From contig NZ_BBPQ01000035.1 of assembly GCF_000787855.1 (NCBI RefSeq), positions 1 to 33,503 on the forward strand: a stretch of DNA of 33,503 bases, in the 5' to 3' direction. Below are positions 5,440-21,575 of the stretch, piece after piece. The position numbers were made by a program, and so were the translations under genes. Below the pieces are notes generated by a model. The model had not been told where the DNA came from. It was given only the letters and a program-made list of their open reading frames with translations, and made no database searches. The stretch is from Streptacidiphilus anmyonensis. GTDB lineage: Bacteria > Actinomycetota > Actinomycetes > Streptomycetales > Streptomycetaceae. Numbering within the stretch: position 1 is the first letter of the stretch; each line of letters begins with the position of its first letter.

Positions 5440-6051
5440 CTACAGGTCGTCGAGCAGGCGACGGGCGTCCGAGAGCAGGCGGGCCACCTCCTGCCGCTTG
5501 TCCGCGGCGGGATCGTCCCGGCCGTCCGCGGCGCAGCCCGGGCAGCCGCTCACGGCGACCTGGAGTGCCGTCGCCGCCTGGCGAGCGAACAGCGAAAGGA
5601 GGTCCAGCTCCGGCAGGCTGGCCCGCGCCGCAGGGGCGGGATCCAGGACCTCCAGCACGCCCAGCACCTCCGCGCCGTGGATGAGGGGCGCGGCCATGAG
5701 CGCGTCGGGCACGTAGCGGGTGGACTCGGCGAGCAAACGGTCGAAGGCGGTGTTGCGGCGCAGGTCGTCGACGATCAGCGGCTCGCCGGAGGCGGCGACC
5801 CAGCCGGCGATGCCCTGACCGGCGGGAAAGCGCCTGCCGACCAGAAAGTCCTGCCCCTGGCCCGACACGGCACGGAAGACGAGCTCGTCGGTGGCCCGGT
5901 CCAGCAGCAGGATCGAGCCGGCCTCCGCGGCGAAGATGGCGCGGGCGACGTTGACCACCGACTGCAGGAGCTCCGCCGTCGCCGGCCCCAGCCGCGCGTC
6001 GGCGGAGGCGGAGGCGGAGGCGGGGGCGTGGGGGTACGTCGACTCGATCAC
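5440..6051 (-). CDS. GAF-domain sensor protein
   Basis: 203 residues from GTG 6051, which overlaps the TGA of the upstream subtilase gene as GTGA, so translation is probably coupled. AGAGGG precedes the start. Residues about 20-165 form a GAF domain: AIFAAEAGSILLLDRATDEL, GRRFPAGQGIAGWVAASGEP, LIVDDLRRNTAFDR, then AAPLIHGAEVLGVLEVL. A short Ala/Ser-rich head precedes it, and the tail has two cysteines close together (SGCPGCAADG) and a charged helix. GAF domains bind small ligands such as cyclic nucleotides. The gene is last in a run beginning with a nucleotide cyclase, so cyclic-nucleotide sensing is a reasonable but unproven guess. No kinase or output domain is present. Confidence 0.88.
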   Translation of the reverse strand: MIESTYPHAPASASASADARLGPATAELLQSVVNVARAIFAAEAGSILLLDRATDELVFRAVSGQGQDFLVGRRFPAGQGIAGWVAASGEPLIVDDLRRNTAFDRLLAESTRYVPDALMAAPLIHGAEVLGVLEVLDPAPAARASLPELDLLSLFARQAATALQVAVSGCPGCAADGRDDPAADKRQEVARLLSDARRLLDDL

Positions 6052-6950
6052 GGGATCGTTCCCTCTCGTGGAGACGGTTGCTGCGGGAGGTCGGAGACGC
6101 GGACGTTGGCCGCGGACAGGTACAGGACGCTCTTCAGCTGAAAGGTGGTCATCCGCGGGTGGCTCGACAGGATGCGCGCGCACATCCCCGCGACGAAGGG
6201 CGTGGCGAAGCTGTTTCCCGACGTCCGGATCGACGTGCCGCCGATCCAGGCGACCTCGACGTTCTGGCCGTGCGCGAAGAACTCCACGGGCGGCTGCGGG
6301 TTGTAGAGGTACAGGTCGGGGTCGGTCTCCTGGTGGCTGCCGACCGAGATGACCGAGGCGAAGCGCCAGGGGAAGCTCTCCACCTGCGCGTTGTGCGCGG
6401 AGGCGACGATGACCGTGCGTCCGAAGTAGGCGGCGTCGGCCAGGGCGTGCAGTTCCTCGGCGAAGCGGTTCTTGGTGGTGGACAGGCTCAGGTTCACCAC
6501 GTCGAAGCCCTGCTCGACGGCCCAGCGCAGGCCGGTCAGCAGCATCTCGCCGGAGCCGGAGAAGCGCTCCCCGAGCACCCGGACGCTGTGGAGCTCGCAG
6601 TCGGGGGCGATCCGGCGGATGATCCCCGCGCAGGCGGTGCCGTGGCCGCAACTGTCCGCGGCGGCGGACTCGGTGACGCGGACGCCCGCCTCGTCCTTGA
6701 CGACGGCCCAGGAGCCGTCGACCGGACCCACGCCCGGGTGCTCGCCCTCCACCCCGGAGTCCACCACGCAGACCCGGACCCCTCGGCCGGTGCCGCCCAC
6801 GAGGCCCGCGACGCCCGCCGCGGACGTCCCGGACGGCGTGGGAGGCGCTGGAGGCGGGCCGACGTCGGCGTGGACCGGCAGGTCCGCGGGCGTCCTGCCG
6901 CGCAGGCCCCAGGTCAGTCCGCGCGACGCGGTGGTGGCGGCGGTGGTCAT
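6048..6950 (-). CDS. S8 family serine peptidase (subtilase), no signal peptide
   Basis: 300 residues from ATG 6950, which overlaps the TGA of the upstream cyclase gene. The subtilisin triad is present: Asp64 in VCVVDSGVEGEHP, His103 in CGHGTACAG, and Ser247 in SGNSFATPFVAG, where Asn replaces the usual Thr before the Ser. Asn187 in SAHN is the probable oxyanion residue. No signal peptide, pro-domain or membrane anchor is seen; the N-terminus is a Pro/Ala-rich stretch of about 50 residues. It is probably cytosolic, unlike most actinobacterial subtilases. Cytosolic S8 enzymes in RiPP loci often trim leader peptides (LanP-like). That role is an inference from its position near the precursor genes; activity on them is not shown. 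Confidence 0.9.
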   Translation of the reverse strand: MTTAATTASRGLTWGLRGRTPADLPVHADVGPPPAPPTPSGTSAAGVAGLVGGTGRGVRVCVVDSGVEGEHPGVGPVDGSWAVVKDEAGVRVTESAAADSCGHGTACAGIIRRIAPDCELHSVRVLGERFSGSGEMLLTGLRWAVEQGFDVVNLSLSTTKNRFAEELHALADAAYFGRTVIVASAHNAQVESFPWRFASVISVGSHQETDPDLYLYNPQPPVEFFAHGQNVEVAWIGGTSIRTSGNSFATPFVAGMCARILSSHPRMTTFQLKSVLYLSAANVRVSDLPQQPSPREGTIP

Positions 6951-9900
6951 GGCATCGTTCCCTTTCCTTGCGCGTGTGCTGCGAGCATCTCGGCGGCGCG
7001 CGATCCCGGACGGTGCCCCTTGGCGGCGAACCGCTGCCTGGCCGCGTCCGCCGCACGTGCCGCCTCGCCGGGACGGCCGAGCAGGAGCGCGGTGCGGGCG
7101 TGGTCGAGCAGCGCCGTCGCCTGCACGATGGGGGAGTCCGTGGCGCCGGCCGCGGCCAGTGCCCTCGCCAGCAGCCGCTCGGCTGTCTCCCGGTGTCCGT
7201 ATCGGGCGGCGATCCGCCCGCGCAGGCCGTCGGCGTCGGCGGCCACGGCGGAGGGTCGGCGTTCTTCGGAGGGAGCGGCCGCGGGATCCGTTCCTGCCGT
7301 CCGGTCCGTTCCGGCCCCGGGGCTCCGGCCGGTCGGGTGTGCGCCGAGTTCGTCCAGGGCCGCCACGGCGGCCGCGGTCCGGCCGTGGTCCAGTCGGAGC
7401 CGGGCGGTGTCGAGCAGGACGCTGCGCAGCAGGCCGGTCTCGCCCAGCCGGCGGGCGGCGCCGGCGGCGGTGTCCAGCATCCGCTGGGCGCCGTGCCGGT
7501 CCCCGCCCAGGGACGCCACCGTCGCGGCGAAGAAGGGCAGGAAGACCTCCGCCTCCACGTAGCCGAGCCGTTCGGCGACGCGCTCGGCGTCGGCGAGGCT
7601 CCGCGCGGCCGCGTCGAGGTCGCCCTGGAGCGCCAGCAGCACGGCCAGCGGGCAGTTGATGGTCACCCGGACCGCGGGACGGCTGTTGCCGTGGGCGGCG
7701 AGCAGCGCGTTGCAGCGTGCCACCGCCGAGGTCACCGGCGCGGGGCCCCGCCACAGGGACACCGCCAGGGCGCCCAGGGCCGCGGCGAGTTCCTGCCCGC
7801 CGTCGGCCCGCACCGCGTGGTCGACGGCCCGGTCGAGGAGCGCGTGCGAGGCCTGGAACTGCCCGTCGGTCTGCTGCTGTTGGGCGAGCCGCAGGCAGGC
7901 CCGGGCCTGGCCGAGGTCGTCGGCGGCGCGTTCGAAGACCGGCAGGGCCGCCCGGGCTGCGGCGGCGGGCTGCTCGTCCTGGCCGAGCACCGCGAGGCTG
8001 AGCCTGGCATGCGCCGCCTCCACGGGGTTGGCGGTTCCGGCGGCGACGTCGGCCAGCAGCGTCCTGGCTTCCGCGCCCCGGCCGAGAGCGGACAGCGCCT
8101 CCCCGAGCCGCCGGGCAGCCGGTGTCCCGGCACTCTCCCCGGGGCGGTAGAGGTCCACCGCGCGGGCCAGGAGGTCGCTCGCCCAGGCGGGGTCGGTCCT
8201 GGCTGCCGCGCGGGCCCCGGCCTGGGCCAGTGTGTCGGCGGCGGCCAGACGCAGATCCCCTGTCCGTGGGCCCTGGAGGCCGAGGCCGGCCCGGTAACGG
8301 TAGGCACGTTCCAGATGGCCGCCGACGGCGGCCAGCCCCTGGCCGCGCACCGACGGGAGCCCGGCCGCCTGCTGGTGCCGGTCGGCGCGGGCCTGCTTGG
8401 CGAGGCAGGCGTAGGCGACCTCCTGGACGAGCCCGCTGGCGAAGCGCAGCGGGCGCTGGTCGGTCGCGATCAGACGCCTGCGGCCCAGCCGCGCGAGCGC
8501 CGCCCGCAGTTCGGCGGTGTCCGCGCGGTCCGCCCTGCCCGGGTCCGTTCCACGCGCCGCGTGCCGCGCTTCCGCCGGGCCCGCGCCGGGCGACGCCGCG
8601 ACGCCCGCGGCATCCGTGGCGTCGGCGGGGTCCGCGGAGTCCAGTGCGAGCAGGTCCTCCTGCGCGAACTCGCGGCCCAGGACGCAGGCCAGGTCCACGA
8701 CGCGGCGCTCCGCCGGATCCAGGGCGTCGAGCCGGGCGCCGATCAGCGCCTGAAGCGTCACCGGGACGTCGTCGGTGTCGAGTTCGCCACGGCAGGCCAG
8801 CAACTGCTCCAGGTGCAGGGGGTTGCCGCTGGCCCGTTCGACCAGCGCGGTCAGGCCTTCCGAGCCGTGGGCCGCGACCTCGGTCAGTTCGGTGGCCAGC
8901 TCCAGGCTCTCAGCCTCGGGCAGCCCGCCGAGGACGACGGCGCGTTCGGCCAGGCCCGGCCGCAGATCCATCAGCTCGGGTCGGCCGGCCAGCACGACCA
9001 GCACCGCGGTGCCGTCGAGGCCGTGCATGAGGCGTTCGAGGAACTCGACCAGCGCGGGGGCCGCCGAGTGGCAGTCGTCGAGGACCAGGAGTCCCGGCGC
9101 CGGGCCGCAGACGGCGGCGAGCAGGTCGACCAGCGCGGCGCAGGTGTCCTCCGGTGTGGGCGTCGGGGTGCCGTCGTGCAGCAGCCCCGCCCCGAGCAGG
9201 TCGACAGCCGCCTGTGGCGGCGGCGGCCCGTCCGGGCGCCGGGCCGTCAGCAGGGAACGCACCGCGTCGGCGAGGGGGTGCAGGCTGGCCTGTTCGCCCT
9301 GCGGGCGGCAGCGGCCGGTGCCGAGCACGGGCGTCGTCCCGAAGCCGGACAGCTTGCGCAGCCACTCGCGCAGCAACCGGGTCTTGCCCTGGCCTGCTTC
9401 GCCGCACAGCAGGAGCAGCTGCCCGCGCCGTTCGGTGCGAGCCAGGGCGAAAGCCCGGTCGAGCGCCCGTAGTTCGACGCCGCGGCCGACGAAGCGCCCG
9501 TCGGGCCGGTGCAGCCCCTCCTGGGCGTCGTCCCGCAGGGCCAGCAGCCGGTGGGCCGTGACGGGCTCGGTCTTGCCCTTCAGGTGCAGCGGGCCGACCT
9601 CGTCCGTCACGACTCCGGAGCCGGCGGCGCGCAGCGTGTCCGGTCCGATCAGGATCTCATCGGTCCCGGCGTTCTGCTCGAGCCGGGCGGCCACGTTGAC
9701 CACCTCGCCCGAGACCAGGGCCTGGCGGGTGGAGACGTCCGAGCCGGTGACCACACGGCCGGTGTTGACGCCGATGCGCGCGTGCAGCCTGACCCCGAGC
9801 GTCGGATACAGCTCGGCGTTCAGCCGGCGCAGCGCCTCCTTCATGCCCAGGGCTGCGGCGAGGGCCCGTCGCGCGTCGTCCTCACGTGCCGCGGGCACGC

Positions 9901-10177
9901 CGAACACCGCCATCACCGCGTCGCCGATGAACTTCTCCACGGTCCCGCCCCGGTCCTCGATCTGCTGGCGCATCAGCTCGAAGTAGCGGAGCGTCACCGA
10001 GCGCAGGATCTCCGGGTCGAGCGCGGCGGACAGGGCGGTGGACCCCACCAGATCGCAGAAGAGAAGCGTGACGATCTTCCGGCTCGCCGTCGTGCGGGTC
10101 GTGGTGCACGGCGCGCCGCAGGCGGGGCAGAAGTGTGCGTCGGGCGGGAGCGTGCGCCGACACGAGGGGCAGCACAT
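6947..10177 (-). CDS. Class III nucleotide cyclase fused to AAA/STAND-like ATPase and TPR region
   Basis: 1076 residues from ATG 10177, preceded by GAGG; GTG 10189 is an alternative four codons earlier. The N-terminus is a zinc-ribbon (CCPSC, CPAC). Residues 34-215 are a class III adenylate/guanylate cyclase domain with the metal aspartates in LLFCDLVGST (Asp42) and IGDAVMAVFG (Asp86), and HARIGVNTG. An ATPase module follows with Walker A CGEAGQGKTRLL and Walker B LLVLDDCHSA. The remaining 500 residues are helical, Ala/Leu-rich TPR-like repeats, interrupted by a low-complexity insert (around DPADATDAAGVAASPG). The layout matches large cyclase-ATPase-TPR regulators of actinobacteria, but there is no LuxR HTH at the end. 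It overlaps the downstream subtilase start by four bases. It probably acts as a signal-responsive ATPase or scaffold; actual cAMP production is untested. Confidence 0.88.
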   Translation of the reverse strand: MCCPSCRRTLPPDAHFCPACGAPCTTTRTTASRKIVTLLFCDLVGSTALSAALDPEILRSVTLRYFELMRQQIEDRGGTVEKFIGDAVMAVFGVPAAREDDARRALAAALGMKEALRRLNAELYPTLGVRLHARIGVNTGRVVTGSDVSTRQALVSGEVVNVAARLEQNAGTDEILIGPDTLRAAGSGVVTDEVGPLHLKGKTEPVTAHRLLALRDDAQEGLHRPDGRFVGRGVELRALDRAFALARTERRGQLLLLCGEAGQGKTRLLREWLRKLSGFGTTPVLGTGRCRPQGEQASLHPLADAVRSLLTARRPDGPPPPQAAVDLLGAGLLHDGTPTPTPEDTCAALVDLLAAVCGPAPGLLVLDDCHSAAPALVEFLERLMHGLDGTAVLVVLAGRPELMDLRPGLAERAVVLGGLPEAESLELATELTEVAAHGSEGLTALVERASGNPLHLEQLLACRGELDTDDVPVTLQALIGARLDALDPAERRVVDLACVLGREFAQEDLLALDSADPADATDAAGVAASPGAGPAEARHAARGTDPGRADRADTAELRAALARLGRRRLIATDQRPLRFASGLVQEVAYACLAKQARADRHQQAAGLPSVRGQGLAAVGGHLERAYRYRAGLGLQGPRTGDLRLAAADTLAQAGARAAARTDPAWASDLLARAVDLYRPGESAGTPAARRLGEALSALGRGAEARTLLADVAAGTANPVEAAHARLSLAVLGQDEQPAAAARAALPVFERAADDLGQARACLRLAQQQQTDGQFQASHALLDRAVDHAVRADGGQELAAALGALAVSLWRGPAPVTSAVARCNALLAAHGNSRPAVRVTINCPLAVLLALQGDLDAAARSLADAERVAERLGYVEAEVFLPFFAATVASLGGDRHGAQRMLDTAAGAARRLGETGLLRSVLLDTARLRLDHGRTAAAVAALDELGAHPTGRSPGAGTDRTAGTDPAAAPSEERRPSAVAADADGLRGRIAARYGHRETAERLLARALAAAGATDSPIVQATALLDHARTALLLGRPGEAARAADAARQRFAAKGHRPGSRAAEMLAAHAQGKGTMP

Positions 10178-10215
10178 GGGGGTCCTCACGGGTCGCGGGC
10201 CGGCATGGCGGACGG

Positions 10216-10422
10216 TCAGAAGAGGGCGCCACCGGCGACGTCGGCGTGGGCCTGGACCTCGGGGCCGACGTCGTCGAGTCGTCCCTTGATGTCCAGGAGC
10301 ACGGCCAGCTCCTCCCCGGTCAGGGAGCGGAGGACGGCGTGCTGTTCCTCGGTGAGCGCGTGGATGCCGAACCCGGCGGCCTCGAGCGCGGTCAGCGTGT
10401 CCTTGGACAGGTCAGATGACAT
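10216..10422 (-). CDS. Small protein of 'aroma-sacti cluster' type, Cys-free
   Basis: 68 residues, starting MSSDLSKDTLTALEAAGF, from ATG 10422. The start overlaps the end of the upstream putative diiron enzyme gene by eleven bases. The middle (LTEEQHAVLRSLTGEELAVLLDIKGRLDD is the core stretch, cut here for length at LTEEQHAVLRSLTGEELAVL) is helical and amphipathic. The end is Gly-rich (VAGGALF). The pattern LT.EQ..VL.SLT.EE...L..IK.RLD with a GG..F tail matches what I recall as the aroma-sacti cluster domain, found beside radical SAM genes. It contains no cysteine, so it cannot carry sactionine links; it may be a precursor of another RiPP type, a leader-like partner or a peptide chaperone. 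Family assignment is from memory. Confidence 0.75.
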   Translation of the reverse strand: MSSDLSKDTLTALEAAGFGIHALTEEQHAVLRSLTGEELAVLLDIKGRLDDVGPEVQAHADVAGGALF

Positions 10423-11191
10423 GGCGGTGCTCCTCCATCGGTTCCGGGTCCGAGACGGTTGTCGGCTTGCCCTGGGCGGTCGCCAGGTGGTCGAAGAGCC
10501 GGGTGAGGGTGTCGGCGGTGTGCACGGCGCAGGCGCAGACCTCCGAGAGCCGGCGCCGGGTCAGCGGCAGTGTGTCGAGCAGGTGGTGGAGCCCGGCCAG
10601 GTGGTCGGTGTCCAGGTCGGCGTGCTCCCGGACGGTGCGGAACGCCGCAGCGGGGTAGCCGGTCCGGGCCGCGAGCAGCTCGGCCAGGCCCGGCGCGGGG
10701 GCGTTCCCCTCCAGGACGGCGATGTAGCCCAGCAGGACGACGGGGTGCCGGTGCTCGATCCGGTAGTACTGCGCTCCCACGAGTTCGACGACCAGGGCGT
10801 GCGGCACCGCGGCCGCGACCCGGTGGGCGGGGGCGCCGACGGCTGCCAGGTCCTCCAGGATCCAGTCGTCGTGGCCGCGTTCCTCCTGCGCGCGGTCCCG
10901 GAACCAGTCGGGGAGCATCGCGGCCAGGGGGTCCTCGAGCTGCGCGCAGCGCTGGACGGCCCGTTCCAGCAGCGGCACCGAGGCGGCGACCAGGGCGTGC
11001 ATGGCCGTCAGATAGCCGAGATAGCGCACGGGGAGGTCGTCGGCGGACCAGAGCCTGCGGGCGGCCCGCTCGATGCCCGGCCGGGTCAGGGCCAGCATGG
11101 TGCCCAGCCACGCGGAGGCCGGCCGGTCGGACGCCTTCGAGTCGGCGGTCTGCCCGGTGGGGGTGTGCCTGCCGCCGGCCTCGCGGATCAC
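10412..11191 (-). CDS. Heme-oxygenase-like putative diiron enzyme (iron-containing redox enzyme family)
   Basis: 259 residues from GTG 11191, overlapping the radical SAM stop as GTGA. The all-helical sequence fits the TenA/PqqC/heme-oxygenase-like fold. Candidate metal ligands are Glu103/Glu104-His107 in AQEERGHDDWILEDL, His65 in LTAMHALVA, Glu189-His190 and Asp193...His197 in REHADLDTDHLAGLHH. The ExxH and HxxD...H spacing fits the HDO diiron oxidase pattern. Such enzymes carry out oxidative C-C or C-N chemistry, and some occur in RiPP clusters. The substrate here is unknown; the small protein gene immediately downstream and the radical SAM gene immediately upstream suggest all three work together. 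Confidence 0.85.
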   Translation of the reverse strand: MIREAGGRHTPTGQTADSKASDRPASAWLGTMLALTRPGIERAARRLWSADDLPVRYLGYLTAMHALVAASVPLLERAVQRCAQLEDPLAAMLPDWFRDRAQEERGHDDWILEDLAAVGAPAHRVAAAVPHALVVELVGAQYYRIEHRHPVVLLGYIAVLEGNAPAPGLAELLAARTGYPAAAFRTVREHADLDTDHLAGLHHLLDTLPLTRRRLSEVCACAVHTADTLTRLFDHLATAQGKPTTVSDPEPMEEHRHVI

Positions 11192-12312
11192 CTGGTCCTC
11201 CCCGGGCGGTAACCGGCGTCGCCACCCGGGGCCACCAGGTGCGCGTAGGGGGCGCAGCCGTAGGCACGGACCAGGGCGGCGGGGCCCGCCGCGCGTGCCT
11301 GCCGGGCCGCCGCCTGGTCGAGCAGGGACCCGACCGGGCCCGCGGCGTCGCGGGCGGCCCCGGCGTGGACGGCTGGGTCGCGGTGCAGGGTGCGGCAGGC
11401 CGCACACGGGCCGGCGGTGTCCGCGCCGCCGCGGGTCCGCTCGGCGGCGAGGGCGCGTTGCGCGTAGCGGTCGCGAACGCGGAGCGGGCCGACGGCACGG
11501 ACGAGCCGCAGTTCCGGCGAGGCCAGGGAGCGGCGGCGCACCGTCGGCCAGTCGGCGGCGTCCACGTGGCCGAGCGAGAGGTGGGCGGGCACGGGCCGGC
11601 GGTCCACCGTGTGCTGGTTGCAGCAGGCGACCACGGCCCCGTCGAAGGCCACCACGGGCCACGCCGCCATGGCGCAGGGCATCGCGGGCGCCGCCTGGCC
11701 CGGTGGTGGCGCGGCGTGCGCCCAGCCTGCCGCGCGGCCCACCTGGCGGACCTCGTTGACCAGCATCGGGGCGCGGTCGCCGAAGGTCCGGCGGACGGCG
11801 GCGATGACGTCGGCCAGGTAGGGGTCCTCCGCGCTGCTGCCCGCGAGGTGGAAGCTCACGGCGACTCCGGCGTCCAGAACGCCGCGCACGACGCGGAACA
11901 CGTGCTCGCGCGGGACCTCGCGTTCGTGGTACTCGTCGAGGCTGGCGGAGAAGTGGTCGACTGCGGTGATCGCCTGCCGGATCGGGCCCGGAACACGCTC
12001 GCCTCGGGCGAAGAACATGCCGCTCAGCAGCGCCACACGGGTGCCGACGGCCTGGGCCGCGCGGGTCAGGCCGATGACCAGGTCCGGATGCAGCAGCGGT
12101 TCGCCGCCGGTCAGCAGCATCACCTCCGGCCGGTCCTCGCAACGGAAGGAGCGGACGAACCCGAGCAGCCGCCCGGGGTCCGGGCGCTCGGCCGCCTCGG
12201 GGCCGGAGCCGGCGGAGCAGTGCGCGCAGCGCAGCGGGCAGCGGCGGGTCACCGCGACCAGCAGTCCCGCGCACGGCTCGGGCCGCAGCCCCATGATCTC
12301 CGCCAGTTCCAT
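11188..12312 (-). CDS. Radical SAM protein with SPASM/twitch-like Cys-rich C-terminus
   Basis: 374 residues from ATG 12312, with GGAGG upstream. The radical SAM cluster motif is VTRRCPLRCAHC (Cys25, Cys29, Cys32), followed by LTGGEP (residues 68-72) for SAM binding and SASLDEYHE (residues 122-130), typical of the barrel. The C-terminal third has further cysteines: Cys213 (MPCAMA), Cys230/231 (VACCNQ) and Cys303/306 (GPCAAC). This fits an auxiliary iron-sulfur cluster of SPASM or twitch type, as in peptide-modifying radical SAM enzymes. No RRE domain is obvious at the N-terminus. It is coupled to the HO-like gene by a GTGA overlap. The likely role is post-translational peptide modification; the small downstream protein or the divergently encoded lanthipeptide precursors are candidate substrates. 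Confidence 0.9.
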   Translation of the reverse strand: MELAEIMGLRPEPCAGLLVAVTRRCPLRCAHCSAGSGPEAAERPDPGRLLGFVRSFRCEDRPEVMLLTGGEPLLHPDLVIGLTRAAQAVGTRVALLSGMFFARGERVPGPIRQAITAVDHFSASLDEYHEREVPREHVFRVVRGVLDAGVAVSFHLAGSSAEDPYLADVIAAVRRTFGDRAPMLVNEVRQVGRAAGWAHAAPPPGQAAPAMPCAMAAWPVVAFDGAVVACCNQHTVDRRPVPAHLSLGHVDAADWPTVRRRSLASPELRLVRAVGPLRVRDRYAQRALAAERTRGGADTAGPCAACRTLHRDPAVHAGAARDAAGPVGSLLDQAAARQARAAGPAALVRAYGCAPYAHLVAPGGDAGYRPGRTR

Positions 12313-12454: not shown

Positions 12455-14335
12455 TCAGACGCGTTCGCGCGCGTACACGTGCGTCAGCGGAGGCAGGACG
12501 TAGCGCGCCGCGTGCGCGGAGACCTCGTCGACGGGCGAGACGACGACCCCGGCCGCGATGAGCCGTTCCACCTCCCGCAGGGCGTGCCGGTGGTCGCGTC
12601 CCATCAGGTCCGCCGCCTGGTCGAGGGTGAAGGGGACGCTCAGCGGCAGCGGTCCCAGTTGGGCGAGCGCGGCCCGCTCGGGGACGTCGAGGGCGTTCCA
12701 CTGGTCCCCGAGCGGGAGGCGGACCGCGACCGGGCCCACCGCCAGCTCGTCCAGCAGGCCGTGGGGGTCGGTGAGTCGGTCGGCGAACTCGGCCAGCGGG
12801 ACGTGCCGCAGCACCGACAGCTTGTGCGCGGCGACGGAGACGGCGAGAGGAAGCAGCCCGCAGGAGGTCACGATCGCCTCGGCCGCGGCCGGGTCGCAGC
12901 ACACCCGGCGTCGGCCGATGACGGCGGCCAGGAGGTCCAGCGCCTCCTGCGGGGTGAAGGGGGGAAGCTCGAAGCGTGCGGCGGCCCCGGCGGTGACCAG
13001 GGGCGCACGGCTCGTCAGCACGACCGAGGCCGGACCCTGTTCGGGCAGCAGCGCGCGCACGGACTCGACGTCGCGGGCGTCGTCGAGGACCAGCAGCAGG
13101 CGACGGGTCCCGAGCCAGGTCCGCCAGGCGGAGAGCGCGTCCTCGGCGCTGGCCGGCGCGGGTTCGTCTGAGGTCGTGTCGCGCCCGAGCTCCGCCACGA
13201 CCTCGGCGGGGGTGCGCACCGTCCCGTCCGGGCGGGCGAGCCGGACGAAGAGCTGTCCGTCGGGGAAGTCGTCGCGCAGCCAGTGTGCGGCCTGCACGGC
13301 CAGCGTGGTCTTGCCGATGCCGACCGGCCCGGTCACCGCGACCAGACGTCGGCCGGACCGGACGGTGGCGACCAGGTCGTCCAGTTCCTCGGCCCGTCCG
13401 GTGAATCCGGCGGGAACCTGCGGCAGCCGGTTCGTGCACGGCTGCGGCCGCGGGGCCCGGGTGGCGGCGCGGGCGAGGCGCTCACCGTTCGGGCCCTCGC
13501 CTGCGTCGGCGGCGGCGCGGGCCGGCGGACGAGGGGAGCGGGCGGCTGAGCCCTGGTCGGTCAGGACGGCGCGGTAACAGGCGTCCAGTTCGGGGCTGGG
13601 GGAGAGTCCGAGCTCGCGTGAGAGCTGTTGGCGCAGTTCGGAGTAGACGGCCAGGGCCTCCGTGCGGCGTCCGGCCTGGTGCAGCGCCGTCAGCTGCAGG
13701 GCGCGCAGCCGCTCGCGCAGCGGGTGCTGCTCGGCAAGGTCGGCCAGCGCGTTGACCACCGGCCGCGGGTTGTCCAGCCGCAGTTGGACCTCCGCCCAGT
13801 CCTCGACGGCGCTGACGTGCGCCGCCCCGAGACGCTCGGCGGCTGCCCGGACGAGGGGTGAGTGCCCCAGTTCCGCCAGCGGCGGACCGGACCACAGGTG
13901 CAGCGCCTCGGCGAACAGGGCCCCGGCCCGCTCGTGCGCCGCCTCGTCGCAGGCGTCCGCCGCCGCCTCGCGTCCGGCGCGCAGCAGGCTCTGGAACCGG
14001 AGCGTGTCCAGCTCCGACTCGTCGACCCGGATCAGGTAGCCGCCGGGCCGGTGGACGAGCCACTCGCGACCGGCGTCGACGGACGCGAAGAGCCGTCGCA
14101 GCGTGGACACGTACACCTGGAGGTTCTTACGCGCGGTGCGCGGCGGTTCGTCCTGCCACACCACCTCGGTGAGCGTGTCGACCGAGACCGGTGTGTTGGG
14201 CCGGCAGAGCAGGAAGGCCAGGACCAGACGCTGCTTGAGCGGGCCCAGGTCCAGCGGTCGGTCCTGCGCCTCGGCGCCGAGGGGACCGAGCAGGCGGAAT
14301 CGCAATCGGGCACTGCTGCCTGTGGAGCCGAGCAC
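12455..14335 (-). CDS. SARP-family transcriptional activator with NB-ARC-type ATPase
   Basis: 626 residues when started at GTG 14335, chosen because GGGAAGGGG precedes it; starts further upstream (ATG 14410, 14374) lack a ribosome site. Residues about 8-85 are the winged-helix DNA-binding domain (RFRLLGPLGAEA, LGPLKQRLVLAFLL, NLQVYVSTLRRLF). Residues 92-240 are the bacterial transcriptional activation (BTAD) TPR-like domain (QHPLRERLRALQLTALHQAG, SRELGLSPSPELD). A linker follows, then an NB-ARC-like ATPase with P-loop VTGPVGIGKTTLA, LLLVLDDARD, and GLLPLAV. The layout is that of large AfsR/RedD-class activators but without the long TPR end. It is placed between the leftward radical SAM run and the rightward lanthipeptide genes and is the probable activator of one or both. 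Confidence 0.92.
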   Translation of the reverse strand: MLGSTGSSARLRFRLLGPLGAEAQDRPLDLGPLKQRLVLAFLLCRPNTPVSVDTLTEVVWQDEPPRTARKNLQVYVSTLRRLFASVDAGREWLVHRPGGYLIRVDESELDTLRFQSLLRAGREAAADACDEAAHERAGALFAEALHLWSGPPLAELGHSPLVRAAAERLGAAHVSAVEDWAEVQLRLDNPRPVVNALADLAEQHPLRERLRALQLTALHQAGRRTEALAVYSELRQQLSRELGLSPSPELDACYRAVLTDQGSAARSPRPPARAAADAGEGPNGERLARAATRAPRPQPCTNRLPQVPAGFTGRAEELDDLVATVRSGRRLVAVTGPVGIGKTTLAVQAAHWLRDDFPDGQLFVRLARPDGTVRTPAEVVAELGRDTTSDEPAPASAEDALSAWRTWLGTRRLLLVLDDARDVESVRALLPEQGPASVVLTSRAPLVTAGAAARFELPPFTPQEALDLLAAVIGRRRVCCDPAAAEAIVTSCGLLPLAVSVAAHKLSVLRHVPLAEFADRLTDPHGLLDELAVGPVAVRLPLGDQWNALDVPERAALAQLGPLPLSVPFTLDQAADLMGRDHRHALREVERLIAAGVVVSPVDEVSAHAARYVLPPLTHVYARERV

Positions 14336-14379
14336 GAGACCCCTTCCCTGTGAGGTGCGGCCGTGGAGTGGCATCAGCC

Positions 14380-14427
14380 AGGATGAATGCCGAAGACGGC
14401 TAGGATTCATCTCAGTTGACGCTGAGA
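14380..14427. promoter_or_regulatory. Candidate operator of the SARP gene side
   Basis: Two AGGAT elements (14380-14384 and 14402-14406, in the contexts AGGATGAAT and AGGATTCAT) are 22 bases apart, two helical turns, a spacing typical of direct repeats bound by SARPs. An inverted repeat TCTCAG-TTGACG-CTGAGA follows at 14410-14427. Both lie just upstream of the SARP start, so autoregulation or repression is plausible. Inferred from pattern only. Confidence 0.35.
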
Positions 14428-14649: not shown

Positions 14650-14799
14650 ATGAGCTCGCAGCCCACAGCGGACCAGGACGAGGCGGAACCCGAGGCGGTG
14701 CTCTCCCTCCAGGAGACACCCGCCGTCGAGACCCGGAGCAGCGAAGTCCAGGCCCACATCAGTGGATTGAGCGTCGCCGTCTGCGGCGCGAACCAGTGA
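14650..14799 (+). CDS. Class III lanthipeptide precursor 1
   Basis: 49 residues from ATG 14650 with AGGAG at 14640-14644. The acidic leader contains EAVLSLQETPA, matching the (I/L/V)LxLQ motif recognised by class III synthetases. The C-terminal part reads VQAHISGLSVAVCGANQ. SGLSVAVC is a full labionin motif, SxxSxxxC, in which both serines would be dehydrated and joined with the single Cys. It is the first of five paralogues sharing VLSLQ, an AH before the core, and a four- to six-residue tail after the Cys. One ring per peptide differs from SapB-like peptides, which have two. The likely modifying enzyme is the LanKC encoded at 15804. Confidence 0.9.
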   Translation: MSSQPTADQDEAEPEAVLSLQETPAVETRSSEVQAHISGLSVAVCGANQ

Positions 14800-14866
14800 C
14801 CTCGCCCTCGCGTCGTCGCACAGCACGTCACCCGCACAAGTGACCCGACCCAACAGGAGGAACGCC

Positions 14867-15022
14867 ATGAGCACCAACGAGCCCGTCGCCGAGAACACCA
14901 ACGTCGAGACCGAGGCCGTGCTGTCGCTCCAGGAGACCCCGGCCGCCGAGGCCGAGGCGCAGGACGACGTCCAGGCCCACAACAGCGGCCTCAGCGTCCT
15001 GGTGTGCATGAGCCAGCAGTGA
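14867..15022 (+). CDS. Class III lanthipeptide precursor 2
   Basis: 51 residues from ATG 14867, with a perfect AGGAGG at 14855-14860. Leader motif EAVLSLQETPAAEAEAQDD; core region AHNSGLSVLVCMSQQ. SGLSVLVC is the labionin motif SxxSxxxC and resembles one half of SapB/AmfS-type peptides. Its leader-coding DNA is nearly identical to that of precursor 3 (71 of 73 bases), showing recent duplication or conversion. A strong hairpin follows directly at 15036. Confidence 0.92.
   Translation: MSTNEPVAENTNVETEAVLSLQETPAAEAEAQDDVQAHNSGLSVLVCMSQQ
14909..14981 (+). repeat. Leader-coding direct repeat, copy in precursor 2
   Basis: Bases 14909-14981 match 15171-15243 (precursor 3) at 71 of 73 positions; both differences are G to C. 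The match spans TEAVLSLQETPA through the AH just before the core and then stops. The leader DNA is therefore homogenised while the core DNA is free to differ. Confidence 0.85.
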
Positions 15023-15035
15023 CCTTGCTGCGCGA

Positions 15036-15068
15036 GGGGTGCGCCGGCCGCTTCGGCCGGCGCACCCC
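15036..15068 (+). terminator. Perfect 15-bp hairpin after precursor 2
   Basis: GGGGTGCGCCGGCCG (15036-15050) is the exact reverse complement of 15054-15068, around a three-base CTT loop. It begins 13 bases after the precursor 2 stop. Without a T-run it resembles the U-less hairpin terminators of streptomycetes; it may also protect upstream mRNA. It would lower expression of precursors 3-5 and downstream genes relative to 1-2 unless another promoter lies after it. Confidence 0.7.
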
Positions 15069-15092
15069 GCCACCTCACCACGGACAAGCGAC

Positions 15093-15293
15093 GTGAGCAC
15101 CAACCGGCCCGGCTCCCACAGCGCGGCGCCCGCCTGGACCGCGACGGCCGAAAACAGGGACGCCGGGACCACCGAGGCCGTGCTGTCGCTCCAGGAGACC
15201 CCGGCCGCCGAGGCCGAGGCGCACGACGACGTCCACGCCCACATCGCCATGAGCGCGATGAGCCTGGCCGCGCGCTGCGCCGAACGGAACTGA
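15093..15293 (+). CDS. Class III lanthipeptide precursor 3, divergent core
   Basis: 66 residues from GTG 15093 (VSTNRPG, matching the MSTNEP start of precursor 2); an earlier ATG at 15039 lies inside the hairpin and is unlikely. The ribosome site is weak (GGACAAG). The leader has EAVLSLQETPAAEAEAHDD, almost the same as precursor 2. The core differs: HIAMSAMSLAARCAERN lacks the SGLSV signature, and the labionin motif is SAMSLAARC, SxxSxxxxC, one residue longer before Cys and shifted two residues. This suggests a distinct ring size. It keeps AH before the core and a Glu/Arg/Asn tail. Confidence 0.88.
   Translation: MSTNRPGSHSAAPAWTATAENRDAGTTEAVLSLQETPAAEAEAHDDVHAHIAMSAMSLAARCAERN
15171..15243 (+). 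repeat. Leader-coding direct repeat, copy in precursor 3
   Basis: Partner of 14909-14981 with two mismatches in 73 bases. Similarity ends exactly at the start of the predicted core, consistent with duplication followed by core diversification or with gene conversion limited to the leader. Confidence 0.85.
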
Positions 15294-15306
15294 CGGAGGC
15301 AAGGAA

Positions 15307-15468
15307 GTGGACGCCACGGATCCGAACGCGGACCCGGCCGAGGTCGAGACCCAGGCCGTGCTCTCGCTGCAGCAGGCCCCCGCGGCCCAGACCGCGGACG
15401 ACGGCGAGGACGACGTCCTCGCGCACAACAGCGGCCTCAGCGTCTACCGCTGCATCGAGACGAACTGA
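15307..15468 (+). CDS. Class III lanthipeptide precursor 4 (GTG start)
   Basis: 53 residues from GTG 15307 with GGAGG at 15295-15299, only 13 bases after the precursor 3 stop. Leader: VDATDPNADPAEVE, then TQAVLSLQQAPAAQ, in which Gln replaces Glu after LQ and Ala replaces Thr before Pro. Core: AHNSGLSVYRCIETN with labionin motif SGLSVYRC. Its GTG start and small size make it easy to miss by gene callers. The Tyr-Arg inside the ring distinguishes it from the hydrophobic rings of precursors 1, 2 and 5. Confidence 0.9.
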   Translation: MDATDPNADPAEVETQAVLSLQQAPAAQTADDGEDDVLAHNSGLSVYRCIETN

Positions 15469-15553
15469 GGCCACCCGCGAGGCGGCGCCGACCCCGCCAG
15501 GCGGCGCCCCCCGCATGTCATCCCCGCTGTCATCCCAGGAAGGCAGGCCTACC

Positions 15554-15706
15554 ATGATCGGCGCACCCACCCCCGACGAGAGCTCCGAGACCCTTCCCGA
15601 GACCGTGCTCTCCCTCCAGGAGACGCCCGCCGAGACCGACCCGGAAGCCGAGGTCGTCGCACACTTCAGCGGTGGCAGCTTCCTGGTCTGCACCGGCCAG
15701 AACTGA
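15554..15706 (+). CDS. Class III lanthipeptide precursor 5
   Basis: 50 residues from ATG 15554, preceded by AGGAAGG at 15537-15543; the in-frame ATG 15515 has no ribosome site. Leader: PETVLSLQETPAETDPEAEV. Core: AHFSGGSFLVCTGQN with labionin motif SGGSFLVC, in which Gly and Phe replace the Leu and Val of precursors 1, 2 and 4. It is followed by a perfect 21-bp hairpin and then the synthetase gene. Confidence 0.92.
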   Translation: MIGAPTPDESSETLPETVLSLQETPAETDPEAEVVAHFSGGSFLVCTGQN

Positions 15707-15726
15707 CCGACCGCGCCCCGCGGCGC

Positions 15727-15774
15727 GCGCGTGAGTGCGCCCGCGCCCCTCGTGGCGCGGGCGCACTCACGCGC
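15727..15774 (+). terminator. Perfect 21-bp hairpin between precursor 5 and lanKC
   Basis: Bases 15727-15747 are the exact reverse complement of 15754-15774 around a six-base loop (CCTCGT). The hairpin starts 20 bases after the precursor 5 stop and ends 29 bases before the synthetase ATG. Its place between many-copy substrate genes and the enzyme gene is typical of a partial terminator that keeps synthetase lower than precursor. Confidence 0.75.
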
Positions 15775-15803
15775 TGCGCCGCCCTAGTTGACGGGAGCCC
15801 TGC

Positions 15804-18422
15804 ATGGCCGACACAGCGTCCGAGTTCGCCGTGGCCGACCGGGAGTTCTACGCACCGCTGGCCGCCACCGCGGCGCCGCGCGGTCCCCTCACACCCAGCC
15901 GCACCGCAGCGGGCTGGCGCGCCACCACCTCCGGCATCTGGGTCATGTGGCACCGCGACGGCCTGCTCGTCCCGAAGGACGGGTGGAAGGTCCACGTCTC
16001 CGCCCGTCGTTCCCGGCTGGCCCCGGTGCTCGACACCGTGGCCGGAATCTGCTTCGCCCACGACGTGGCGTTCAAGCACATCGCCTCCGACGAGTTCTAC
16101 TGGTGGGTCCACCACAAGCACGCGTCCCGCGCCCAGAGCGGCAAGTTCATCGCCGTGTACCCGCCCGGTCCCGCGGCGGCCCGCCGGCTGATGGAGGACC
16201 TCTGCGCGGCGCTCGACGGCGAGAGCGGCCCCTACATCCTCTCCGACCGGCGGTACCGGCCCAGCGCGCCGGTGTCCTACCGCTACGGGGCGTTCGCACC
16301 CCGGGAACGCCTGGAGGCGGACGGCACCGGCACGCCGCTCGTCCTCGACGGGCACGGCCGAGCCGTCCCCGACCGGCGCGACATCGCCTTCCGGCTGCCC
16401 TCGGGCGTGACCGACCCCTTCGTCGGGCCCCGCGCGAACCGGGCGTCCGCCACCGCGGACACCTCGCTCCACGGCTTCGCGGTCGGGGCGGCGGTCCGGC
16501 ACTCCAACGGCGGCGGGGCCTACCTCGGACGCGAGGTCGCCACCGGGCGCAAGGTCTTCATCAAGGAAGCCCGCCCCCACCACGGCCTGGGCGAAGGCGA
16601 GAGAGACGCCGTCGCCCAACTGGACGGCGAGTGGCGCACGCTCACCGCCCTGCAGGCCGCCGCCCCGGGCCTGGCCCCCGAACCGATCGCCCGATTCCGG
16701 GTGTGGGAGCACGAGTTCCTGGTCACCGAGTTCATCGAGGGCATCGCCCTGAACAAGCTCGTGGCCACCACCCACCCGCTGATCATCGCCGGATCCGCTC
16801 CCGAGGACTTCGACGCCTACTACGCCCGCTGCGAGCGGGTCCTCACCGCCATCGAGGAAGCCCTGGCGCGGCTGCACGCGCTCGGCTACGTCTTCGTCGA
16901 CGTGAGCCCCGGCAACGTGCTGGTCGCGCCCGACGACACCGTGCGGCTCGTCGACTTCGAGGCCGCCCGAGGCCCCGGCGTCGAGCCGACACTGCTGGGC
17001 ACACCCGGCTACTCGCCCCCCGCAGACCTCGTGGAACGCCACGGCCCCACCGTGTACGACGACTACGGGGTCAGCGCGCTGACCCAGCTGCTGGTCGGCC
17101 CCCTGCACCACACCGTCGCACGCCACGCCGCCGCCCTGCGCCACCTCCACCGCGACGTCACGGAACAGGCGCCCCTGCCGTCGACGCTGTGGCAGCGGGT
17201 CGTGCGCCACCACGCACTCGACGACGCGCCCGAGCTCCCGAGCCCGCAGGAGGTGGCCGAGGATCCGCTGCGTCACCTGAGCGCGCTGCGGGACGCGGTG
17301 GCCGACGCCCTGGAGGCCATGGCCGATCCCGACCACCCGGACCGGGTCTTCCCGTCGGTGCCGCGCGGCTACCGGACCAACACCGTCTGCGTCGCCTACG
17401 GAACCGCCGGCGTCGTCCACGCCCTCACGCGCGCCGGGCGCGCACTGCCGGGCGGTGTCCTGGACCGGCTGCGGCGCGAGGCCACCGACGCGGCCGACCG
17501 GATCGGGCCCGGCCTCTACGTCGGCTCGGCGGGCCTCGCCTGGGTGCTGGCCGACCAGGGACTGCTCGACGAGGCCGAACACCTGCTCGCCAAGGCCGAC
17601 CGGCATCCGCTCACCGAGGCGAGTGCGACGCTGTTCGGCGGCGCGGCAGGAGTGGCCCTGGGCCATCTCGCCCTCCACCGGCACACCGGAGACGAACGCC
17701 ACCTCGACCGGGCCCGCGCGCTGCTGACCGCCCTGCCCGTCGGCGACGCGCTCACGCCCCGGCTCGGCGACAACGACGCGACCGGCCTGCTGCACGGACG
17801 CTGCGGCGTGGCGCTTGCCCTGCAGCAACTGGCCACGGTCACCGGGGAGGACGAACACCTGCACCGGGCCGTGGCACTGCTCCACGCCGAACTGGACCGG
17901 GCGATCGACCCGCTCGCGCCCGGGCTGGTGTTCCCGGTGTCGGACACCGACCGGCGGGCCATGCCCTACCTGTACTGCGGATCGGCCGGGCTGGTCCACG
18001 TCGCGAGCCGCTGCCTGCGCGCCGCCCCCGACGCGCGGCTCACGGCCGCGATGCCGCGCCTCCTCGCCCCGCTGCGCGGCACCTTCACCGTGATGCCCTC
18101 GCTGTTCCCCGGGATGGGCGGGCTCGCCTTCGTCCTGGCCGAACACGCCCGGCTGACCGGTGACGCCACCTCGCACACCGCCTCCCTGCGCGCCGCGCAG
18201 GCGCTGTTCAAGCATGCCGTCCCGCACCCGACCGGGGTGCGGTTCCTCGGCGAGGGCCTGCTGCGCTACAGCGCGGAGCTGTGGAGCGGCTCCGCCGGCG
18301 TGCTCCTGGCCCTCGACCAGGTGCTGACGCCGCGCGCGGACCGGCTCTTCACCCTCGACACCCCGGACCCGGAGCCGGCGACGTCCACGCCGCCTCCCTC
18401 TCACGCCGGGGTGCCGAGGTGA
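15804..18422 (+). CDS. lanKC: Class III lanthipeptide synthetase (LanKC)
   Basis: 872 residues from ATG 15804 (GGGAG upstream). Residues 1-215 are the phosphoSer/Thr lyase domain with family motifs GWKVHVSAR, SGKFIAVYP and GPYILSDRRY...YRYGAF. Residues 225-480 are a kinase domain: Lys254 in VFIKEARPHH, catalytic loop FVDVSPGN (Asp366, Asn371), metal Asp384 in LVDFEAA, and GTPGYSPP. Residues 500-860 are the LanC-like cyclase with repeated GxxG turns (YGTAGVVH, FGGAAGVAL, LLHGRCGVAL, YCGSAGL, WSGSAGVLL). The CHG and WC zinc-site pairs of class I/II/IV cyclases are not evident, although single cysteines occur in HGRCG and LYCGS; so class III rather than IV. It should phosphorylate and eliminate core serines and form lanthionine/labionin in the five upstream precursors. 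It overlaps the exporter start by GTGA. Confidence 0.95.
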   Translation: MADTASEFAVADREFYAPLAATAAPRGPLTPSRTAAGWRATTSGIWVMWHRDGLLVPKDGWKVHVSARRSRLAPVLDTVAGICFAHDVAFKHIASDEFYWWVHHKHASRAQSGKFIAVYPPGPAAARRLMEDLCAALDGESGPYILSDRRYRPSAPVSYRYGAFAPRERLEADGTGTPLVLDGHGRAVPDRRDIAFRLPSGVTDPFVGPRANRASATADTSLHGFAVGAAVRHSNGGGAYLGREVATGRKVFIKEARPHHGLGEGERDAVAQLDGEWRTLTALQAAAPGLAPEPIARFRVWEHEFLVTEFIEGIALNKLVATTHPLIIAGSAPEDFDAYYARCERVLTAIEEALARLHALGYVFVDVSPGNVLVAPDDTVRLVDFEAARGPGVEPTLLGTPGYSPPADLVERHGPTVYDDYGVSALTQLLVGPLHHTVARHAAALRHLHRDVTEQAPLPSTLWQRVVRHHALDDAPELPSPQEVAEDPLRHLSALRDAVADALEAMADPDHPDRVFPSVPRGYRTNTVCVAYGTAGVVHALTRAGRALPGGVLDRLRREATDAADRIGPGLYVGSAGLAWVLADQGLLDEAEHLLAKADRHPLTEASATLFGGAAGVALGHLALHRHTGDERHLDRARALLTALPVGDALTPRLGDNDATGLLHGRCGVALALQQLATVTGEDEHLHRAVALLHAELDRAIDPLAPGLVFPVSDTDRRAMPYLYCGSAGLVHVASRCLRAAPDARLTAAMPRLLAPLRGTFTVMPSLFPGMGGLAFVLAEHARLTGDATSHTASLRAAQALFKHAVPHPTGVRFLGEGLLRYSAELWSGSAGVLLALDQVLTPRADRLFTLDTPDPEPATSTPPPSHAGVPR

Positions 18423-19807
18423 ACGCCGCGCCCCGGGATCTGACGCTGTACTGGTGGGGCCAGACGGCCTCCGCGTTCGGCTCCGTCTTCACCGCGGTCG
18501 CGCTCCCCGTCGTCGCCGTGGTGCAACTGGGGGCCTCACCGGCCCAGGTCGCGCAGGTGAGCGCGGCCGCGACCCTGCCCGTCCTGCTCCTCGGGCTGCC
18601 CGTGGGCGTGCTGGTGGACCGGATCGCCCGGCCACGACGGGCGTTGCTGACCCTGGACACCGTCTCCGCCGCCGCGGTGGGCGTGGTGGCGCTGGGCCTG
18701 GCCGGTCACCTGGTGACGATCGGGTGGCTGGTGCTGCTGGCCCTGGTGCAAGGCGCCGTCACCGTGGTGACCGAGGTCGTCTACTTCGTGCATCTGCGTC
18801 AGCTCACCGAGAGCACCGACGGCGGCGGCACCAGCCCTCTCGCCCGGGCCCGCGCGCGGCTCCAGGCGGGCGAGTTCGGTGCCGGCCTGGTCGGCCGGCT
18901 GCTGGCCGGCCCGACCATCGTCGTGCTCGGCGCCGCGGCGGCGCTCGCCGTGGACGGGCTCAGCTACCTGCTGAGTCTCGCCGCACTGCTCACCATGCGG
19001 CGTGCGGCGGCCGCGCCGCGCACACCGGCTGCCGGGCGCGCCGCCCGGCCGCGTGACGCGTTCGCCGGGCTGCGCCTCCTTGTCGGCGACGACTTCCGCC
19101 GGGCGCTGACCGTGTTCCTGGTCGCGCCGGTCTTCGCCGCCGCCGGGGTCACCGCGCTCACCGCACCCTTCCTGCTGCGGGTGCTGCACGTCCCGGCCGC
19201 CGTCTACGGCGTCACCGGAGCGGCCGCCGGGCTGCTGGGGATGGTGGGATCGATCGTCGCCAGTCGTGTGCTCGCGCCGCACCGGGACGCACGCCGGATC
19301 ATGGCGGGCGCCTTCACCTGCGCCATCGGCGCGGCGCTCCTGCTTCCGCTGGCGGGCGGCCCGCTGCCGGTGGCGCTGTGCTGCGCGGCACTGGGGATCG
19401 GGGTGCCGATCTTCTTCGGCTCGATCGCCAATGTTGCCCTGGGCCCGGTCCTGGTCTGCGACGTCGCCGAGGAGGCGACCGGCCGCGTCATCGCCACCCT
19501 CCAGGTGGTCGCGGCGGCGGCGACGACACTCGGCGCGATCACCGGCGGCGCGCTGGGGGAGTGGCTCGGCGTGCGCTCGGCGATGTGGGGGCTGGATCTG
19601 GGGGCGCTGGCCGCCGTCCTCCTGGCGCTGCCGACCCTGCTGCGCTCCGGCCGACCCGGCTCAACGCCCGCCGGCCGGCGGGGGACAGGGGACGCCGCCG
19701 ATGCCACCGACGTCACCGCTGTCATGGAGGCGGCGGCGGAACTCGACGGCCACCTGGGCGAGCCGGCGCACCTCGGAGTCGAGGGACACGGTCCCGCCGT
19801 GCAGTGA
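18419..19807 (+). CDS. MFS transporter, probable lanthipeptide exporter
   Basis: 462 residues from GTG 18419, which overlaps the lanKC stop (GTGA), so the two are translationally coupled. The sequence has about 12 hydrophobic helices; the MFS loop 2-3 signature appears as GVLVDRIARPRRALL. The pattern resembles Bcr/enterobactin-exporter-like MFS proteins (TIGR00900/MFS_3 type). ABC exporters are more usual for lanthipeptides, but MFS proteins in synthetase operons do occur. Export of the mature or leader-bearing peptides or self-protection is inferred from the operon. The last 49 codons overlap the tail of the convergent membrane-protein gene; the C-terminal tail after about residue 415 (GSTPAGRRGTGDAADATD) is polar and low complexity. 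Confidence 0.9.
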   Translation: MNAAPRDLTLYWWGQTASAFGSVFTAVALPVVAVVQLGASPAQVAQVSAAATLPVLLLGLPVGVLVDRIARPRRALLTLDTVSAAAVGVVALGLAGHLVTIGWLVLLALVQGAVTVVTEVVYFVHLRQLTESTDGGGTSPLARARARLQAGEFGAGLVGRLLAGPTIVVLGAAAALAVDGLSYLLSLAALLTMRRAAAAPRTPAAGRAARPRDAFAGLRLLVGDDFRRALTVFLVAPVFAAAGVTALTAPFLLRVLHVPAAVYGVTGAAAGLLGMVGSIVASRVLAPHRDARRIMAGAFTCAIGAALLLPLAGGPLPVALCCAALGIGVPIFFGSIANVALGPVLVCDVAEEATGRVIATLQVVAAAATTLGAITGGALGEWLGVRSAMWGLDLGALAAVLLALPTLLRSGRPGSTPAGRRGTGDAADATDVTAVMEAAAELDGHLGEPAHLGVEGHGPAVQ

Positions 19808-21031: not shown

Positions 21032-21575
21032 GGCGCGAGCGGACGCGGGGCGGAGCCAGCAACGACCCCAACCGGGTGTCGCCGGGCTCGGCGAGGCTTC
21101 GCCGCTCGTCCTCCAGGGCGGCCCGGCAGCGGATCAGCGTGGCGATCAACTCCGCCTCCCGCTCCTGCGGTTCGCTGTACGCGGAGCGCCCGAGGACCCG
21201 GTGGACGAGCGCAGGCGGAAGGTTGGGGAACAGCAGCTGAGCCGTCGACTCCCGGGTGGCGGAGCTCTGGTGGTGCCCGCAGATCAGATGGGCCACCTCG
21301 TGGAGCAGGATGTGCTGCTGGTGCAGGGCCGTCGTGTCGGCGGAGTAGGAGATGTAGTCGGCGTCGTCGGTACTGGCGAGCAGACCGCACGGGACGTTCG
21401 GCCGGGCCGCCATCGGCAGCAGCCGGATGGGGCGGCCACGGCGCCGCTCCAGCGTCGCGACGAAGTCGACGACGTCGAACGGGCTGGGGAGGGCGAGCGC
21501 GTCGACGGTCCGTCGGCAACGCTCCATCAGTTCCCTGGTCTCCCGGTCGGCGAAGCGACGCGGTCGTCCGAACAT
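21024..21575 (-). CDS. ImmA/IrrE-family metallopeptidase
   Basis: 183 residues from ATG 21575 (MFGRPRRFADRETREL), chosen because AGAGGG precedes it; upstream in-frame codons are unlikely to be translated. The zinc motif HEVAHLICGHH (HExxH) lies near residue 93, after the segment CGLLASTDDADYISYSAD, where a substrate strand is usual. ImmA/IrrE peptidases cleave XRE-type repressors to induce their targets; the XRE gene lies 211 bases upstream on the same strand. The natural target and signal are unknown. Confidence 0.9.
   Translation of the reverse strand: MFGRPRRFADRETRELMERCRRTVDALALPSPFDVVDFVATLERRRGRPIRLLPMAARPNVPCGLLASTDDADYISYSADTTALHQQHILLHEVAHLICGHHQSSATRESTAQLLFPNLPPALVHRVLGRSAYSEPQEREAELIATLIRCRAALEDERRSLAEPGDTRLGSLLAPPRVRSRRD

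Follow-up and report, generated by a model that had tools for sequence, protein, structure and literature searches.

The 33,503-nucleotide (nt) stretch of Streptacidiphilus anmyonensis contig NZ_BBPQ01000035.1 analysed here (the window) carries a class III lanthipeptide cluster in which five tandem precursor genes precede the gene for a LanKC synthetase. Beside them stands a divergent cassette for a radical SAM enzyme, a heme-oxygenase-like protein, an S8 subtilase and their companions (Table 1). The original prediction, made from the letters alone, had described a class III locus of one-ring peptides with a full LanKC at 14650..18422. All the open reading frames (ORFs) were confirmed where it placed them, each precursor with one cysteine and one SxxSx3-4C motif, and the class III assignment is supported by the LanKC model score, the LxLQ leaders and the core motifs, from which the ring chemistry is predicted. 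That interval covers only part of the cluster, which reaches left to about 5440 through cassette genes beyond the SARP gene, every one on the minus strand. The larger point, missed at the time, is that a second leader element, (E/D)VxAH (hereafter the tag), is linked to this cassette.

Table 1. Genes and repeats of the cluster (positions in the window; aa, amino acids)
Feature	Positions	Strand	Remarks
GAF-domain protein	5440..6051	-	domain match
S8 subtilase	6048..6950	-	300 aa; best named model QhpE, under its cut-off
Nucleotide-cyclase/AAA regulator	6947..10189	-	1080 aa; start codon uncertain; domain matches
Small peptide, aroma_sacti domain	10216..10422	-	68 aa; ends GPEVQAHADVAGGALF; shares the tag of the lanthipeptide leaders
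Heme-oxygenase-like protein	10412..11191	-	PF14518
Radical SAM enzyme	11188..12312	-	extra conserved Cys; nearest solved relatives EpeE (YydG) by profile and fold
SARP-family regulator	12455..14410	-	BTAD and NB-ARC; domain matches
Precursor 1	14650..14799	+	49 aa; core ISGLSVAVCGANQ; leader elements LSLQ and EVQAH
Precursor 2	14867..15022	+	51 aa; core NSGLSVLVCMSQQ, unchanged in orthologs P0007 and P0008
Inverted repeat	15036..15068		perfect; arms of 15 bp; separates precursors 2 and 3
Precursor 3	15093..15293	+	GTG start; 66 aa; core IAMSAMSLAARCAERN
Precursor 4	15307..15468	+	GTG start; 53 aa; core NSGLSVYRCIETN
Precursor 5	15554..15706	+	50 aa; core FSGGSFLVCTGQN
Inverted repeat	15727..15774		perfect; arms of 21 bp; separates precursor 5 from LanKC
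LanKC (lyase, kinase, LanC-like cyclase)	15804..18422	+	872 aa; RamC_N, Pkinase and LANC_like matches
MFS transporter, probable exporter	18419..19807	+	first 4 nt overlap the end of LanKC

All five precursors share one layout: VLSLQ in an AVLSLQ-type leader, an acidic stretch, the tag, and a core with a single ring motif (SGLSVAVC, SGLSVLVC, SAMSLAARC, SGLSVYRC and SGGSFLVC, in order). VLSLQ, the LxLQ-type element of class III leaders, is invariant across 17 aligned precursors, and all five cores fit the SxxSx2-5C pattern of class III lanthipeptides. In lipolanthines the ring cysteine is C-terminal and is decarboxylated to form avionin; here four residues follow the ring cysteine in each of the five. 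The 73-nt leader block is a direct repeat of five copies which, together with the recurrence of the motifs in 82 homologues (see below), argues that the array did not arise by chance. Between precursors 2 and 3 the leader block is identical at 70/72 nt and the core at only 11/39, so recent leader copying or conversion has taken place between the two. Precursor 3 is the most divergent member, with its GTG start, longer N-terminus, SAMSLAARC motif and weak Shine-Dalgarno-like stretch; by eye, such a purine-rich stretch precedes the other four starts. The inverted repeat at 15727..15774 is a possible attenuator. Perfect arms of at least 11 bp occur within 200 nt of LanKC in 5/15 loci compared, so that conservation of a hairpin between array and LanKC across relatives is only partly supported.

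The LanKC has the domain set of class III synthetases and scores 751 bits against the class III model NF038151 (cut-off 575), compared with 406 bits against the class IV model, under that model's cut-off of 650; its relatives of solved structure are class III synthetases. Its cyclase region shows neither a CHG nor a WC motif, its ligand positions not having been aligned to a zinc cyclase. A relative of the MFS transporter is present at 15/15 tagged LanKC relatives (L049-L053, L055-L061, L066-L068).

Within the cassette, the catalytic residues of the S8 subtilase (Asp64, His103 and Ser247) are invariant among 7 aligned sequences, and the protein scores 113.1 bits against the QhpE model NF049966, short of the cut-off of 165. 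The radical SAM enzyme reaches 37.3 bits against the EpeE/YydG model TIGR04078, whose cut-off is 300; its fold match to EpeE is a similarity and not family membership. The small peptide belongs to the aroma-sacti family (NF045560, 77.0 bits, cut-off 30), on which no open-licence paper was found. It contains no cysteine and scores 24.2 bits against the StsA-type sactipeptide model NF045559, below the cut-off of 75. The aroma_sacti match stops at His59 of ...GPEVQAH, leaving ADVAGGALF, and in the 30/30 small-peptide copies listed the AGGALF end is invariant and the tag is present.

The tag follows the cassette from locus to locus. A tagged ORF (30-130 aa, with an acidic leader and a cysteine after the tag) occurs in 26/32 cassette loci, as against 0/10 LanKC loci (nine distinct ones, L002 and L070 being the same locus) whose fetched stretch lacks the cassette. 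The 32 had been selected for similarity in LanKC or in the radical SAM enzyme, with no regard to the tag, and the 20 radical SAM loci were the best-scoring ones not already fetched rather than a random draw from the 53 genomes with a match. Four of the six misses (L049, L108, L110, L118) do carry the tag on inspection by eye; in L106 and L112 the cassette is present and a tagged precursor was not found. Tagged ORFs also occur in 4/4 loci picked by LanKC with a partial cassette or none nearby. An S8 gene is present in 32/36 loci examined, and two of the four lacking it end at a contig edge. Of 16 tagged LanKC loci (the window, L049-L053, L055-L061 and L066-L068), 12 have a radical SAM gene of more than 50% identity in the fetched stretch; a diverged piece of one is present in L067, and L068 ends with its contig. 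Conversely, the untagged, mostly two-ring loci L001, L003, L054, L062-L065, L069 and L070 show no cassette within the fetched 17.5-18.6 kb. In the genomes that hold L065 and L064 (G010 and G004) a cassette lies about 12-14 kb away, and that of G010 adjoins tagged precursors of another type (L120). The radical SAM gene was found in 53/297 genomes of the family and in 3/296 drawn from the phylum, all three again members of that family, among them the genome of the window itself.

Several kinds of precursor share the tag, as the 20 radical SAM loci show. Five loci (L111, L115, L116, L117, L119) combine it with LDLQ, a reversed CxSxxS core and a different LanKC (33-38% identity); L113 resembles them with another core. 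L102 and L103 have EAGCIVN cores and an S9 peptidase, with no LanKC found nearby. Seven loci (L104, L105, L108, L109, L110, L114, L118) encode multi-core precursors built of repeated VVAHSGEDTPWC-type units in which the tag recurs ahead of each core; all seven have an S9 peptidase and a P450 match, and no LanKC was found near them. L120 has four small tagged genes, and L107 and L121 are single forms.

In quick trees the window groups with L049-L051 both by LanKC (Shimodaira-Hasegawa-like approximate likelihood ratio test, SH-aLRT, 100) and by radical SAM enzyme (SH-aLRT 95, the window's branch being long). In L049-L051 the cassette is on the same strand; the window and many sister loci have it in divergent orientation, and in L066 it lies downstream. 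Since orientation differs between loci and the linkage stays, the linkage has outlived rearrangement. Viral contigs scanned with LanKC gave no relative, and plasmid records gave only distant LanKCs (<60% identity) and no radical SAM relative.

The reading we favour, with a probability of about 0.62, is a class III cluster making five co-produced one-ring peptides and linked with a conserved cassette for regulation and processing that has (E/D)VxAH as its address. LanKC would bind the LxLQ element and dehydrate both serines of each SxxSx3-4C core, and this one enzyme probably closes the five peptides into single rings, putatively one labionin (or lanthionine) per core. LxLQ is most likely the address of LanKC, and the tag that of the cassette and its protease. 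Most simply, the tag would be the recognition or cleavage region of the cytoplasmic S8 protease, whose cut would free cores of 13-16 residues for export by the MFS protein, under presumed regulation by the SARP, cyclase/AAA and GAF proteins. The radical SAM and heme-oxygenase-like proteins would act at least on the AGGALF small peptide and may act on the lanthipeptides.

Several observations weigh against this reading. L052 and L061 have tagged precursors and no cassette in the fetched flanks; one L052 flank is a contig end, and its genome carries a radical SAM gene elsewhere. In a sister group of 11 LanKC loci the order is reversed, with the tag ahead of LxLQ, and cleavage at the tag and nowhere else would therefore release a core still bearing LxLQ. 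The AH that the original prediction placed just before the core does stand there in all five window precursors; it is a leader element, found on the other side of LxLQ in these related loci. The tag is absent from 8/82 family homologues and from 1/6 L051 precursors, and its contexts in the window (SEVQ, DDVQ, DDVH, DDVL, AEVV) are not exactly (T/S/A)EVE, the motif of the protease AmyP discussed below. Shuffled small peptides acquire the tag by composition alone in 1.4% of cases; among background small ORFs, 5/1153 have it. Because any one locus gives weak statistics, the argument depends on the tag recurring from locus to locus, and these loci are themselves related by descent.

The relatives of the precursors bear on whether the five cores are a library or individual products. 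A profile of the 17 precursors retrieved 87 proteins (E-value of 1 or lower), including the five precursors of the window, whereas a single-sequence search with precursor 2 gave few matches. The 82 others are annotated as hypothetical or unnamed; many are from Kitasatospora and one is from Amorphoplanes digitatis. All 82 have an LxLQ-type motif, 74 the tag and 77 a [ST]xx[ST]x1-6C core, with one cysteine after the leader in 75 and two in seven. Arrays in the nearest LanKC relatives hold two genes (L049, L050) or six in a row (L051, Kitasatospora). The six-gene Kitasatospora array refutes uniqueness of the arrangement. P0008, P0036, P0038 and P0041, which share the same longest contig (91412 bases) and nine contigs each, suggest one array. 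Eight homologues (P0039, P0047, P0051, P0052, P0059, P0062, P0065, P0073) have VLSLQ or a close form and a one-ring core with no VxAH tag, and seven of these are named as or linked to Kitasatospora contigs.

Prochlorosins form a natural library in which the leader is kept and the core is free to vary between orthologs. A combinatorial set of that kind, as the original prediction proposed, would fit the near-identical leaders and divergent cores of precursors 2 and 3 and the 15 or more core types among relatives, and yet it is improbable. Core 2 is kept at 13/13 in P0007 and P0008 (leaders 26/38 and 27/38), core 4 at 11/13 in P0046 (leader 17/40; 9/13 in P0041) and core 5 at 10/13 in P0038 (leader 21/38). 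That these three cores are kept in another lineage better than their own leaders argues against a free library, as do matches of 77-96% for several cores across three Kitasatospora strains (five proteins per strain, as returned by the search). A fixed set is in turn opposed by members of those strains without a counterpart (for example 8/22, 13/23 and 11/22); precursors 1 and 3 have no clear counterpart either, their best cores reaching 8/13 (to a precursor-2 ortholog) and 5/16. The precursors therefore read as individually kept products with some turnover, and may be a multi-component or a multi-product set. A plain SapB/AmfS-type morphogen cluster is very improbable, and disfavoured. Precursors 1 and 2 do score against SapB_AmfS (NF033212), at 13.8 and 19.2 bits, but below its 25-bit cut-off, precursors 3-5 do not match at all, each core has one ring motif and not two, and the same genome holds a separate two-ring AmfS-like locus (L006).

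Two further explanations concern the cassette itself. The divergent operon could turn the AGGALF peptide into a conserved signal or cofactor of its own that does no more than switch on the lanthipeptide genes, the tag being a common protease site. The end of the small peptide is constant while other cores vary, and the operon carries cyclase/AAA, GAF and often SARP regulators, which makes this possible, if rather unlikely; alone, it gives no account of the tag before each core in L104, L105, L108, L110, L114 and L118 unless the protease acts there too. Alternatively, the tag could be where the radical SAM/heme-oxygenase pair docks, with the lanthipeptides, the small peptide and the remaining tagged precursors all modified, for example by L-to-D epimerisation as with EpeE, giving hybrid radical SAM class III products. 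This is doubtful: identity to EpeE is 13-15% over the fold, the sequence match covers the SAM domain only, AGGALF and the lanthipeptide cores have no obvious common target residue, and the S8 linkage is as strict as the radical SAM linkage.

A broader reading would make (E/D)VxAH a portable substrate address of one radical SAM/heme-oxygenase/S8 cassette, serving several unrelated types of ribosomally synthesized and post-translationally modified peptide (RiPP) precursor in Streptomycetaceae, with the window peptides as class III lanthipeptides also tailored by the radical SAM enzyme, for example with D-residues. We regard this as quite speculative and on balance unlikely. Were the tag a shared address, precursor families of different primary enzymes would pass through a common processing platform. 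The swapping of RiPP chemistries by streptomycetes would then be explained, and precursors missing from all family models could be searched for by the tag. For the candidate S8 protease and its motif, the five natural substrates and the repeat-type precursors offer ready test material.

Neighbouring genes and other loci of the genome may be recorded here. Positions 19661-21638 hold an MAB_1171c-family protein and a 204-aa gene, a pair that recurs beside tagged (L055, L056, L058, L059, L060) and untagged (L001, L054) LanKC loci; 2708-4255 encodes a trypsin domain followed by FG-GAP repeats. Elsewhere in the genome, a one-ring-like class III locus (L005, G000:C100, 4232-4600) has a second LanKC and two tandem precursors with SVTSSLSNCC and SVTSSSSDCC, and L006 (G000:C123, 1183-1323) a third LanKC with a two-ring SapB/AmfS-like precursor.

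Known class III systems show that two ring motifs per core, as first taken to be the rule, is too general. Andalusicin (Thur) of Bacillus has one labionin and a cluster with seven near-identical precursors (PMC10604976). It resembles the window in having several precursors, one LanKC and one labionin per product, but is reported to have many extra dehydrations, an N-methyltransferase and unclustered M16B proteases, whereas the window has five distinct cores and an S8 and radical SAM cassette. Paenithopeptin, like bacinapeptin, has one labionin per product and multiple precursors (PMC8960859), as does LanIII-6 with two precursors (PMC9576775). These are Firmicutes systems with M16 proteases and a QAAD motif, and the parts of the two reports available describe no radical SAM cassette. 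A class III survey found 57% of precursors alone in their cluster, one Bacillus cluster with 13 identical precursors and usually no clustered leader protease in actinomycetes (PMC7268733), and single-cysteine precursors, including CxSxxS forms, have been noted computationally (PMC11251773). With single-cysteine precursors and multi-precursor clusters on record, neither a single ring nor a set of several precursors is new by itself. A dual-element leader tied to a radical SAM/S8 cassette was not found described in the literature surveyed, nor was an open-licence paper found on VEAH as a leader-peptide element.

Noursin, a streptomycete class III product with one labionin and S9 peptidase-type maturation nearby, differs in its single precursor and in a histidinobutyrine crosslink that needs Thr and His in the core (PMC10206099). 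The conserved His of AH was considered as a crosslink partner of this kind and rejected as the main reading, since AH lies beyond LxLQ in the sister group. AmyP, a class III S8 protease with a reported need for (T/S/A)EVE, parallels the pairing of S8 protease and leader motif, here (E/D)VxAH, a likeness drawn from its description and not from sequence (PMC10885120). The epipeptide epimerase EpeE/YydG (PDB 8ai1-8ai6), which the radical SAM enzyme matches best in fold and profile, acts on other precursors and shares only the low identity given above. QhpD and QhpE likewise join a radical SAM enzyme and a cytoplasmic subtilisin-like leader protease in one operon, but make a subunit of quinohemoprotein amine dehydrogenase (PMC7876137). 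In the thiovarsolin cluster, the heme-oxygenase-like VarO stands beside the repeating precursor VarA, much as in the repeat-type loci, within a YcaO/TfuA thioamidation pathway of its own (PMC6511847).

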